From Myxococcales bacterium (lineage in GTDB: Bacteria > Myxococcota > Polyangia > Polyangiales > Polyangiaceae), in contig PLXW01000072.1 in NCBI GenBank assembly GCA_003151595.1, forward strand, positions 1,408 to 47,347: DNA of 45,940 nt, written 5' to 3'. This document shows positions 2,978-7,274 of this stretch, in pieces. A program made the position numbers and the translations under genes. How positions within the stretch are numbered: the stretch's first letter is position 1; every line of letters starts with the position of its first letter. The notes beneath the pieces were generated by a model. The model searched no databases and was not told the origin of the DNA. It was given only the letters and a program-made list of their open reading frames with translations.

Positions 2978-3046
2978 GTAGGAGCGACGCCCGCCTCTGG
3001 GATCGCGCGCGACTCCTCGGCGCGCACCGATCGCGATAGCCTGCTC

Positions 3047-3222
3047 GCGTGCGGCGGTGCGTTCTCGAGTCGGTGAAGGTCTCGCCTTCGGCGAGCCGGA
3101 TCCTCTCCGGGGTTACCCCGGAGGAACTTCAGTGGGTAGGCATCTCATCGCGTGACCTGCGCTGCGCCCTGCGCAGGATTGGTCACGCCGTACGGGACGG
3201 GTCGAAGCGCGCCGCCGCGCGC
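3047..3222 (+). ncRNA. Retron msr-msd RNA (candidate)
   Basis: The 254 bp between the small ORF and the reverse transcriptase hold a strongly folded element. Its ends pair: 3047-3063 is complementary to 3206-3222 over 17 consecutive positions (three are G-U), and after one bulged base 3065-3068 pairs with 3202-3205. These match the a1/a2 repeats of retrons. Inside are two tight msr-type hairpins: 3081-3086 with 3090-3095 (6 bp, 3-nt loop) and 3105-3112 with 3116-3123 (8 bp, 3-nt loop). A third is a long msd-type stem: GCGTGACC at 3150-3157 with GGTCACGC at 3181-3188, with a further inner stem 3158-3162/3171-3175. The order a1, msr hairpins, msd stem, a2, RT is that of known retrons. A branching G just 3' of a1 (3069, or 3072-3073) is inferred only. 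No strong promoter is visible; GATAGC at 3035-3040 is a weak -10 candidate. Confidence 0.75.
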
Positions 3223-3231
3223 TGATCGAAC

Positions 3232-4596
3232 ATGCGCGCGTCTCCCCGTTCTCTCCTCGGCGACGCCCTCGCGGCGGCGTTCTTGACGGCGAGCGACTGG
3301 GGCTCCGCGGAGCTCGTCGACATGGGCGCGCGCGCGCTCGGAGCCCGATCCTCTTGGCTCGTCCCTCTCGCGAAGGACGTCCTACGCGCCTTCCCGTCCC
3401 CGCCGCTCCACGATCTCGGCGCGCTTGCACGCTTCATCGCAACAGACGACCGCGTCCGCGACGCGTGCAGAAGCGTTTCCGATTCGCCCAGAGTCCGCGA
3501 ATGGCTCGTCCCATCCCTCGCGATGGGCGCTGCCCGCTGGCCGGTTCCGCAAATCGCGACCGCGGGCGACCTCGCATCGTGGATCGGCGTCGAAGCGCCG
3601 GCGCTCTCATGGCTCGCCGACGCACGCGGGCTCGAGCGCCTCGTGCGCGACGAAGGGCTGCGCCACTACAGATACCGATGGGTCGCGAAGCGCTCGGGGG
3701 GCGTCCGCCTCCTCGAAGAACCGAAGGAGCGCACGAAGGACATCCAGCGACGCATCCTTCACGAGATCCTCGACGTGATTCCGCTGCACGACGCCGCGCA
3801 CGGCTTCCGCCGTGGCCGCTCGGTGCTCTCACACGCCTCGATGCACGCGGGACGGTACGTCGTGCTTCGGATCGATCTCTCCGACTTCTTCTCCTCCATC
3901 ACCGCTGCGGGCGTGCGAGCCATCTTTCGCGCGCTGGGCTACCCCGCCGAGGTCGCGACGATGCTCGCTGCGCTCTGCAGCAACCGCGCCCCTCCGATGC
4001 CCGTCGACGTGGAGAAGCGCGCGCTCGGCGACTATCCCAGTGCGGCCGACATCGACGCGCTTCGTCGCACCAAGATGCTCGTACGCGCGCCGCACTTGCC
4101 TCAAGGCGCACCGACGTCCCCGGCGATCGCCAACCTCTGCGCGTTTGGCCTCGACGTGCGACTCGCGGCTGCGGCGAATGCGATCGGAGCGACCTACAGC
4201 CGATACACCGACGACCTCGTCTTTTCAGGGGGCGTAGACGTCGCGCGGAGAGCGCGGCGCTTCGAGGCATTCGTCGCGGCCGTCGTCCACGACGAGGGCT
4301 TCGCGGTGAACTTTCGCAAGACGCGTGTCATGCGCCATGGCGGGCAGCAGCGCATCGCAGGCCTCGTGGTCAACGATCGGGCGCGCGCGTCGCGAGAGAC
4401 CTTCGATCGCGTGAAGGCGATCCTGCACAACTGCGTTCGACACGGCGCCGCGTCGCAGAACAGGGAAGGTCGGAAGGACTTCCGCGCCTATCTCTACGGA
4501 CTCGTCGCGTGGATCGCGACCGGCGACTCGGCGCGCAGCGAGCGTCTGACGGCGATGCTGGGGCAAATCGACTGGACCGTGCGACAGGCCCCGTGA
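3232..4596 (+). CDS. Retron-type reverse transcriptase
   Basis: The 454-residue product starts 9 nt after the msr-msd RNA. Residues 1 to ~140 are an N-terminal extension with no recognised domain; extensions of this size are known in myxobacterial retron RTs such as that of Mx162. The RT domain runs from about residue 144 to 450. It carries RLLEEPKERTKDIQRRIL, then AHGFRRGRSVLSHASMH (the retron NAxxH position, here HASMH at 201-205), then LRIDLSDFFSSI with catalytic Asp-215, then LPQGAPTSPAIANL. The active site is YTDD at 325-328, with Thr replacing the usual Ala of YADD, and IAGLVVN at 375-381 stands for the retron VTG region. All three catalytic Asp are present, so it should be active. It is expected to make branched msDNA from the upstream RNA. 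No effector gene follows; the next gene is convergent, 21 bp away. A group II intron or DGR RT is less likely given the RNA and motifs. Confidence 0.9.
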   Translation: MRASPRSLLGDALAAAFLTASDWGSAELVDMGARALGARSSWLVPLAKDVLRAFPSPPLHDLGALARFIATDDRVRDACRSVSDSPRVREWLVPSLAMGAARWPVPQIATAGDLASWIGVEAPALSWLADARGLERLVRDEGLRHYRYRWVAKRSGGVRLLEEPKERTKDIQRRILHEILDVIPLHDAAHGFRRGRSVLSHASMHAGRYVVLRIDLSDFFSSITAAGVRAIFRALGYPAEVATMLAALCSNRAPPMPVDVEKRALGDYPSAADIDALRRTKMLVRAPHLPQGAPTSPAIANLCAFGLDVRLAAAANAIGATYSRYTDDLVFSGGVDVARRARRFEAFVAAVVHDEGFAVNFRKTRVMRHGGQQRIAGLVVNDRARASRETFDRVKAILHNCVRHGAASQNREGRKDFRAYLYGLVAWIATGDSARSERLTAMLGQIDWTVRQAP

Positions 4597-5256: not shown

Positions 5257-7274
5257 GTCGCCGGAGTCGTGGTCACCTGCGCGACCCACTTCACGTCGCG
5301 CAGCGTCTCCTTGAACGTCACGCGCAGCTCCGCGAGCTTCGAGTCGAGCTCGACGATCTGCTTGGTGATGTCGTCGATCCGGGTCGCCGTCTCCTCGAGG
5401 CGCTTGGTGAGCCGCGCGCGCAGCCCTTCGGCCGACTTGTTCTTCTCGATCGCGCGCAGGTTGCGGCGCGTCTCTTCGCTCTGCTGCCCGAGGCTCCCCT
5501 GTTCCTGCGCGAGCTTCTGGCGCACGGCGCTCTTGTCCACGATCTCCTTGCGCGTCGCCCACGCCTGCGAAAGCTTCGCCGCCACCGCGCGGTCGCTCTT
5601 CGCGTCCGCCAGGAACGCCTTCACGGCGTTGTCCGCGATCGACGAGAACCAGTCTTCGTTTCGCCGAAGCGTCGCGCGCTCGTCGACCACGAGCTCGCCC
5701 GTGGCGTGAATCCCCACCGTCATCGGCACGAGCGCCGAGCCCGTCCCCACGTTGTCTTCCGTCCCGGCCGGCGCCGCGACGAGGCGCGTGCCGTTCATGC
5801 GCGGGTGCTTCACGAGCACCTTCGCCGCGAGGTCTCCGCCGTTTCGCACGCGGTACTTCGTCTGCGTCTGCGCGTCGCGCTCGATCGTGAGCTCGCCGTT
5901 CTCGATCTTCTGAACCCGCTCGCCAAGCTCGTCGTACTTCCTCTCGGAGTCGACCGCGAGGCTCCGTTCGAGCGCGAACGGAACGGTCGCCGTGGCCGCG
6001 TCAGGGAGCGGATCGACCATCCCTTGCCCCAGGAACGCGCCCCCTTCGAACACCGCGATCGGCCCGCGCTCCAGCGCGCCGCCCGTCTTGTTCGCGAAGC
6101 GCGCCACGCGAAACGGATGCTGCGACGAATCGGGAACGCCGCCGTCGGGCGCGAAGAGGAACTCCGACTCTCCCGGCACTTTGCGCGACAGGAGCATCAC
6201 CATCGTCGCGCTCTTGTCGGGCACGGTGACCGAGTCCGGGAGATCGTACCGCGTGGTCCCCGCTTCGACGGCGATGGCCGCGAGCGATCGGAGGTTGCGA
6301 GGCTGCGAGATCGACGGCGGCGGCGCGCTCTTCGTCGTGATCGTCGACGTGGCGTACCCGGCACCCGACTGGCCGAACGCAGGCGGCGCCGACGGCTTCG
6401 GCGAAATCGCTCCATGTCCGCTCCCCTTGCCTCCTCCACTCTTCTTGTCGCGTCGCACGTTCTTCGACGGAGCTCCGCCGGGACCGCTGCTGTCCGCCAG
6501 CCCATCGATCCCCGCCTCTTCGCGCGGCGAGTCGTCCGCCGGAGAAGCCGGAGCGGCTTGCGCGGCCGGCGCCGGGGGCGGAGGGGGCGCAAGTTGCGAG
6601 AGCGACGTCTCCGATCCCGGCACCGACGAGATCACCTCGCCTTGATCGGTGACGATGGGCTTCGGCGGAATCACCGGCGTCCCCAGCTGCGCCTCGAACG
6701 CCAGCGGCGCGCCCGCGACGAGCGACAGCTTCACGTTCTTCCAATCTTCGCCCGACAGGTTCTGCACGATCCCCCACGCCTGCAGATCCGCCGACCCGTC
6801 CTTGCCGACCACGAGCCGATACGACGGCCTCCAAACCGGCGCGGCCGCGATGTACCCGACGTTCAAGTCGTGCGCCTTGCCGTCGAGCGAGAGCACGACC
6901 TTCTTCATGCCGCGCTTCTCGTCGGACGTGAGCTTCGGCTTCTTCTCGTCGGGGTCGTCCTGGTCCTTGGCGACGTCGTCGTCGATGTCGAGCGGGAACG
7001 CCGCGGCGCGCACCGAGCTCCCGCCCTCTTCCATCACCGCGAGCGTCGCCAGGAAGTCGCCGATCTCCGCTTCCTTCATCTTGAAGCGGACCTCGCTCTC
7101 TTCGACGTGCCCGCCGCGCTCGAAGTACCCGACGCCATTTCGATAGATGACGACGCGCTTCAGCGGCAGCGAGTCGGCCTGCACCTGCGGCCCTCGCGCG
7201 CACCCGGTCTCGGCGAAAGCACCGACCGCGATGGCGAACGACAGGAAGCGAAGACCGTGGCGACCGATGGACAT
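5253..7274 (-). CDS. DUF4139-domain lipoprotein
   Basis: The 673-residue product has a signal peptide ending in AETGC, giving a lipid-anchored Cys near residue 25. The DUF4139 region is clear: LKRVVIYRNGVGYFERGG near residue 40, then APVWRPSYRLVVGKDG and VQNLSGEDWKNVKLSLVAG around residues 150-190. It is interrupted by a ~130-residue Pro/Ala/Gly/Ser-rich insert (about 225-330) and resumes with TRYDLPDSVTVPDKSATMVML. The last ~120 residues form a charged helix, predicted coiled coil (LEETATRIDDITKQIVEL). The domain is widespread in exported proteins of unknown function, so role and substrate are unknown. The stop codon overlaps the start of the glycosylase gene, linking their expression although no functional link is evident. 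Confidence 0.85.
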   Translation of the reverse strand: MSIGRHGLRFLSFAIAVGAFAETGCARGPQVQADSLPLKRVVIYRNGVGYFERGGHVEESEVRFKMKEAEIGDFLATLAVMEEGGSSVRAAAFPLDIDDDVAKDQDDPDEKKPKLTSDEKRGMKKVVLSLDGKAHDLNVGYIAAAPVWRPSYRLVVGKDGSADLQAWGIVQNLSGEDWKNVKLSLVAGAPLAFEAQLGTPVIPPKPIVTDQGEVISSVPGSETSLSQLAPPPPPAPAAQAAPASPADDSPREEAGIDGLADSSGPGGAPSKNVRRDKKSGGGKGSGHGAISPKPSAPPAFGQSGAGYATSTITTKSAPPPSISQPRNLRSLAAIAVEAGTTRYDLPDSVTVPDKSATMVMLLSRKVPGESEFLFAPDGGVPDSSQHPFRVARFANKTGGALERGPIAVFEGGAFLGQGMVDPLPDAATATVPFALERSLAVDSERKYDELGERVQKIENGELTIERDAQTQTKYRVRNGGDLAAKVLVKHPRMNGTRLVAAPAGTEDNVGTGSALVPMTVGIHATGELVVDERATLRRNEDWFSSIADNAVKAFLADAKSDRAVAAKLSQAWATRKEIVDKSAVRQKLAQEQGSLGQQSEETRRNLRAIEKNKSAEGLRARLTKRLEETATRIDDITKQIVELDSKLAELRVTFKETLRDVKWVAQVTTTPAT

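Follow-up and report, generated by a model that had tools for sequence, protein, structure and literature searches.

The 45,940-nucleotide (nt) stretch of Myxococcales DNA analyzed here, which we call the window, carries at nt 3047–4596 what is very probably a genuine, complete-looking chromosomal retron: a structured msr-msd RNA with a reverse transcriptase (RT) gene directly behind it. Judged by its sequence, it is a new member of a clade that is catalogued (PADLOC RT_other) but untyped. The identification is based on a conserved and covarying RNA, on the close pairing of that RNA with a single RT clade, and on the retron fold of the RT. Such elements copy a short RNA into a compact DNA-RNA hybrid, and the current view is that they act in defence against phages, with RT, RNA and DNA restraining a linked toxic effector. 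A first-pass annotation, made from the letters alone, had called the locus undescribed, which is right for this copy but not for its RT clade, since PADLOC already holds the profiles RT_other and RT_outgroup.

The minimum-energy fold of nt 3030–3231 reproduces exactly the layout read in that annotation. The flanks a1 and a2 form 17 consecutive pairs (3047–3063 with 3206–3222), three of them G-U (3050-3219, 3058-3211 and 3062-3207), followed by pairing of 3065–3068 with 3202–3205 and then of 3070–3072 with 3198–3200. Between the flanks lie two hairpins with 3-nt loops (3081–3086/3090–3095 and 3104–3112/3116–3124) and the msd stem (3150–3157/3181–3188 plus 3162–3167/3171–3176), and the ATG of the RT at 3232 leaves a gap of 9 nt from the end of a2 at 3222. 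One detail is uncertain: the minimum-energy fold also pairs 3132–3136 with 3144–3148, a helix absent from the RNAalifold consensus. The fold energy of −106.7 kcal/mol compares with a shuffle mean of −91.4 (standard deviation 4.34; z −3.5), and one of 200 shuffles was equally good. Because such an energy is modest on its own in GC-rich DNA, we rested the case on relatives.

By covariation among those relatives, the RNA structure is beyond chance. From 38 MAFFT-aligned sequences RNAalifold predicts 27 pairs, of which 20 show two-sided compensatory change. Among 85 aligned relatives, two-sided changes are found in 23 of the 27 pairs and 95.5% of the cells pair, counts that lean toward the model structure to which this alignment (A5) was fitted; the MAFFT alignment, which was not fitted to any structure, agrees with the result. 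The covariation score for the 85 sequences is 0.541, versus 0.051–0.100 for slid structures and 0.166 for shuffles. Two-sided changes occur in all nine pairs of the a1/a2 helices (helices 1 and 2), so that the flank pairing proposed in the first-pass annotation does covary, and likewise in six of nine pairs of hairpin 2 and eight of nine in msd helices 4–6.

The same RNA can be followed from genome to genome. A covariance model (R1), built from the 38-sequence RNAalifold alignment, matches on the strand of the RT in 77 of 80 named loci (E ≤ 2e-4), 16 of which are model rows and 4 of which represent the same place as a model row; outside these rows and duplicates the count is 57 of 60. The three named loci with no same-strand match are L003, where the RNA is on the opposite strand, L052, at a contig end (25.9 bits), and L053, with only 153 bases before the match. 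The RNA of L003, from a Solirubrobacterales metagenome-assembled genome (MAG), scores 79 bits at 5758–5939 (−), and its reversal suggests an inversion or an assembly fault. Against nine loci of other retron clades R1 gave no match at E ≤ 1. A second search found an RT downstream on the same strand in 85 of 85 matches, and across 183 whole genomes R1 matched in 15, at one place each; 14 of the matched genomes belong to the set of 15 in which this RT clade was found, and there the match adjoins the RT. The window RNA is the top match at 146 bits, partly by construction, the window being a model row.

Hairpin 2 is the hallmark of the family. Its pattern, CTCTCCGGGGTTACCCCGGGG, precedes the RT at 102 of 125 distinct loci, a count with no shuffle control behind it, whereas a set of 15 loci from other RT clades (the tree placed 14 of them, similarity the remaining one, L111) yielded no instance. 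The 23 loci that lack the pattern are these 15 and eight clade members; at some of the eight the contig ends, the start was misjudged or the RNA is inverted. Rfam gave no match at its gathering score for the window or 20 relatives, and for 271 bases of the window only three chance-level matches (E 2.7–3.8); this negative is uninformative, because the Mx65 and Mx162 loci give no match either. We recognised no paper that treats the RNA of this clade in a literature search that did not include the Mestre et al. 2020 survey, and make no claim that it is unpublished.

At the end of a1, the position of G3069 is G in 85 of 85 model-aligned rows, a slightly generous count since in L001, L091 and L092 the aligned G differs from the single-fold G. 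The base before it is A in 76 of the 85, and the base after it is C in 61. In held-out rows, which are neither model rows nor at the same place as one, G is found in 48 of 48 and the preceding A in 43 of 48. The commonest context among relatives is AAGC, with GAGT in the window; the former resembles TAGC, CAGC and GAGC, which together with ACGC and CAGA are among the priming contexts published for known retrons (PMC6868368). G3201 is conserved in 81 of 85 rows. We infer that G3069 is the priming site.

These features suggest the following course of msDNA (multicopy single-stranded DNA) synthesis. Transcription, probably shared with the RT, would yield the msr-msd RNA (about nt 3047–3222), which the a1/a2 helix would close. 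The RT would then bind the msr, probably via the conserved second hairpin, prime on the 2'-OH of G3069, and copy about 60 nt of the msd upstream from about nt 3201, after which ribonuclease H would trim the template to give a branched msDNA that stays with the RT.

Profile and fold, in the absence of a tree that includes group II or DGR sequences, identify the protein as a retron RT rather than an enzyme of group II introns or of diversity-generating retroelements (DGR). Its top PADLOC profiles are RT_other (PDLC02949, 512 bits) and RT_outgroup (PDLC03740, 485 bits), which cover nearly the whole protein including the N-terminal part. In all it matches 46 PADLOC families, and the 25 matches listed are all named retron RT. 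Retron RTs also head the list in a fold comparison. Placed in a retron RT tree, as the first-pass annotation had proposed, the window RT falls in a clade separate from those of Mx162 and Mx65.

The motifs YTDD (residues 325–328), HASMH (201–205) and IAG (375–377) had been read correctly, and had been taken as signs of a divergent clade. We reject them in that capacity: YTDD is private to the window and the other departures are common. Specifically, among 114 aligned sequences the second residue of YxDD is A in 113 and T in the window alone, while NAxxH begins with N in only 2 and with another residue in 112. The histidine of region X (H205) is invariant (114/114) and G377 of region Y is present in 112; residue 375 is V in 92 and I in 5, and residue 376 is T in 51. 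Published values for retron RTs include NAXXH in 59% and VTG in 47% (PMC4244168), and the Asn of NAxxH is also replaced in the Mx65 RT (PMC6868368). Regions X and Y of the window RT are thus within the published retron range, N and VT being replaced as in many retron RTs. That the clade is divergent stands all the same, because of the tree and the clade-specific RNA.

Besides the lean of the fitted alignment, several points weigh against reading the locus as a retron. A few rows (L001/L081, L091 and L092) have a1 in the wrong place in the alignments A3 (MAFFT) and A5, and R1 failed on one clade member (L103/G180). Support for the clade is 97 by ultrafast bootstrap (UFBoot) in IQ-TREE, but only 0.15 in FastTree. 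The private YTDD could lower the activity of the window copy, and msDNA is so far a predicted product, for the window strain as for every member of the clade. Finally, one RNA (L270; G175:C26:44684-44819, −; 76 bits, model positions 18–165) has no RT in the 7 kb around it, which suggests a remnant or an RNA served in trans.

Table 1. Coordinates of the retron and its parts in the window
Feature	Position (nt)	Strand	Remarks
a1, 5' arm of long helix	3047..3068	+	17+4 pairs with a2; covarying in relatives
Predicted branching (priming) guanosine	3069..3069	+	GAGT context; bulged between two a1/a2 helix blocks
msr hairpin 1	3078..3097	+	Fold; variable among relatives
msr hairpin 2, clade hallmark, consensus CTCTCCGGGGTTACCCCGGGG	3104..3124	+	Pattern search and covariation
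Predicted msd template, complementary DNA (cDNA) ~60 nt	3140..3201	+	Suggested by retron anatomy; ends by analogy with known retrons
msd stem-loop	3150..3188	+	Fold and covariation
a2, 3' arm of long helix	3202..3222	+	Fold and covariation
Retron reverse transcriptase, 454 amino acids (aa) + stop	3232..4596	+	
N-terminal extension of RT, residues 1–93, five-helix domain	3232..3510	+	
Catalytic motif YTDD (nearly all relatives: YADD)	4204..4215	+	

As far as the neighbour clustering reaches, no effector was found linked to these retrons. We clustered open reading frames (ORFs) of at least 70 aa in flanks of up to 6 kb (1.5 kb for loci from whole-genome searches) in 84 groups of clade loci, near relatives having been pooled by hand. 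No neighbour recurs across the 84 groups, though ORFs shorter than 70 aa and very divergent effectors would escape. Only 12 clusters occur in three or more groups. The two largest comprise 10 groups each at mixed strand and distance, with none and four ORFs, respectively, that are codirectional within about 2 kb. Applied as a positive control to 15 loci of other myxobacterial retron clades, the procedure picked out one shared upstream ORF, codirectional with the RT, in 12 of them (L104, L106-L108, L110, L111, L129-L132, L089, L090), and in the three scanned (L104, L089 and L110) this ORF is SWIM_XIII. Within the limits given above, the earlier remark that no effector gene is linked to the window retron is borne out across the clade.

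Among the scanned neighbours in the window are a bactofilin, encoded upstream of the retron at nt 1689–2108, a 178-aa protein with no Pfam family, an 89-aa ORF, a methylpurine-DNA glycosylase and a DUF4139 protein. The 89-aa ORF (nt 2708–2977) has no Pfam match and ends 69 nt before a1. Two neighbours tested against PADLOC gave no match; no SWIM was seen among those scanned with Pfam, nor in the two scanned with PADLOC.

Because no linked effector was found, we regard as the most likely design, and put forward tentatively, a ribonucleoprotein made from one gene, whose conserved N-terminal helical domain would act as effector or bind a partner, a task that falls to a separate effector in typed retrons. 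Residues 1–93 are predicted, from 38 aligned sequences, to form a five-helix domain with a predicted local distance difference test (pLDDT) score of 92.7. The region is barely covered by solved RTs but is aligned in relatives, and 83 of 85 clade members have 89–139 codons between the RNA and RT residue 105. Three observations speak against an effector in this domain: it gave no significant match in a search of known folds, from which unmatched folds escape; L097 and L039 have only 1 and 9 codons at this place, the RT core following directly on the RNA, so that the extension is absent; and in L026, possibly also L032, the reading frame leading to the RT core is closed. The extension is thus widespread yet not universal, which weakens the idea of an indispensable built-in effector.

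The arrangement could alternatively be explained by an effector encoded elsewhere, which the RT-msDNA complex would restrain in trans, with the N-terminal domain, where present, as its docking site. The conservation of that domain (missing in 2 of 85) and the lack of a linked gene in our searches would fit, but no candidate was found, and SWIM_XIII, the sole one for which whole genomes were searched, is without a match in 13 of the 23 that carry the present clade; we rank this explanation next after the one-gene design, as less likely than not. Less likely still is that the RT and RNA of the window are a decaying or weakly active copy, as YTDD (1 of 114), I375 (5 of 114) and the orphan (G175) and inverted (L003) RNAs elsewhere might suggest. 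Against decay, the reading frame is intact, the invariant catalytic aspartates are kept, and the window RNA is the best R1 match, with the reservation on its score given above. It is very improbable that the upstream RNA is the regulatory leader of a non-retron RT, with nothing reverse-transcribed from it: cDNA lengths and ends are inferred and the product is predicted, but the a1-msr-msd-a2-RT order, the conserved G that bulges out where a1 ends, the covarying msd stem, and the retron-type profiles and fold of the RT all argue otherwise. That the enzyme is of the Abi type, or belongs to a group II intron or DGR, is extremely improbable, since the window RT shares the RVT_1 domain with these but scores 40 bits with the group II profile (cut-off 300) and 33 with Drt2 (cut-off 390), and its fold list is headed by retron RTs.

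The retron we describe belongs to a large clade. A protein search returned 2628 matches at E ≤ 0.001 among 7996 candidates scored, not all of them of this clade; in named genomes an alignment query found at least 582 relatives, of which the best 80 loci were used. About seven phyla are represented (Myxococcota, Actinomycetota, Acidobacteriota, Planctomycetota, Pseudomonadota, Verrucomicrobiota and Gemmatimonadota), as we assigned them from record titles, taking MAG titles at face value. Matches at E ≤ 1e-60, with other retron clades counted in, occur in 21 of 183 whole genomes (order of G001) and 24 of 195 (phylum of G002). Some genomes of the genus Myxococcus (G003, G303, G304 and G307) have four retron-type RTs at different places.

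There is little support for a mobile or phage-borne element, although some members may be carried on plasmids. Phage records gave 28 matches, the best at 35% identity, and of 194 relatives on viral contigs the 80 retained are all at or below 34%. Plasmid records gave 118 matches; among the best 12, four are clearly close and two borderline, the others listed being at or below 35%. The close ones are three Burkholderia replicons of 0.9–1.3 Mb (51–52%) and one Tsukamurella record (42.5%); the borderline ones are from Dietzia (37%, a 47 kb plasmid) and Methylobacterium (38.5%, a 2.8 Mb replicon). The Tsukamurella record (L178, NZ_LR134447.1), labelled plasmid 5, has polA and rpsA beside the RT and so looks chromosomal. 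Myxococcus loci share flanking ORFs, which fits vertical inheritance, as has been argued for myxobacterial retrons (PMC6868368).

The genome G321, taken here as M. xanthus DSM 16526 and apparently the type strain, carries, in addition to Mx162 and Mx65, a retron of the present clade as its third (L172 on contig C5; RNA 1435–1616, RT 1619–2956). The third RT scores 555 bits with the RT_other/RT_outgroup retron RT profiles; SWIM_XIII adjoins the Mx162-type and Mx65 RTs in this genome, not the third. It is possible, and we suggest it with some hesitation, that the clade is an unrecognised retron type: one-gene, chromosomal and mostly vertically inherited, spread over some seven phyla, with an msr hairpin of its own and a novel N-terminal helical domain in place of the effector, and with a third msDNA of M. 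xanthus still unreported. A large and mostly chromosomal clade whose RT and RNA are under strong structural selection, and for which no linked effector was found, would have its effector in the N-terminus, have it elsewhere, or serve a role other than defence. M. xanthus is the species in which retrons were discovered, and the copy in its apparent type strain makes the question testable there. In addition, the covariance model defines an RNA family that can be used for annotation.

Among known systems, the window RT is most directly comparable with RT_other and RT_outgroup of PADLOC, which it resembles over nearly its full length; these are profiles only, with neither type, effector nor RNA structure in the output. 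The solved chain of Retron-Eco1 (Ec86) of E. coli aligns only from model residue 93 and so does not have the extension of the window RT; its effector is of the NDT type. As to a type-specific effector, linked or fused, like those of the 13 effector-defined types, no shared neighbour was found across the 84 groups and no significant fold match for residues 1–93, in searches that would overlook ORFs shorter than 70 aa, effectors that have diverged and folds without a match. Mxa2 (Mx65) and Mxa1 (Mx162), PADLOC RT_XIII, are likewise myxobacterial, with an N-terminally extended RT and the RNA directly upstream, and the Mx65 RT shares with that of the window the loss of the NAxxH Asn. However, their RTs lie in other clades of the tree and score best with RT_XIII, whereas the window RT has 301 bits with that profile versus 512 with RT_other; a SWIM_XIII gene stands beside them and none at the window; and R1 does not match their RNA. 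We therefore reject membership of type XIII on the RT clade, the RNA model and the lack of a SWIM gene; the window retron is not of the Mx162/Mx65 kind, although it shares with these the N-terminal extension that the first-pass annotation had noted for myxobacterial RTs. The unclassified Retron-Bth1 of Bacillus thuringiensis is likewise a retron for which a published account gives no obvious effector, and it still makes RT-DNA (PMC12548924). Unlike the window retron, Retron-Bth1 lies on an extrachromosomal element and is interrupted by a group II intron.
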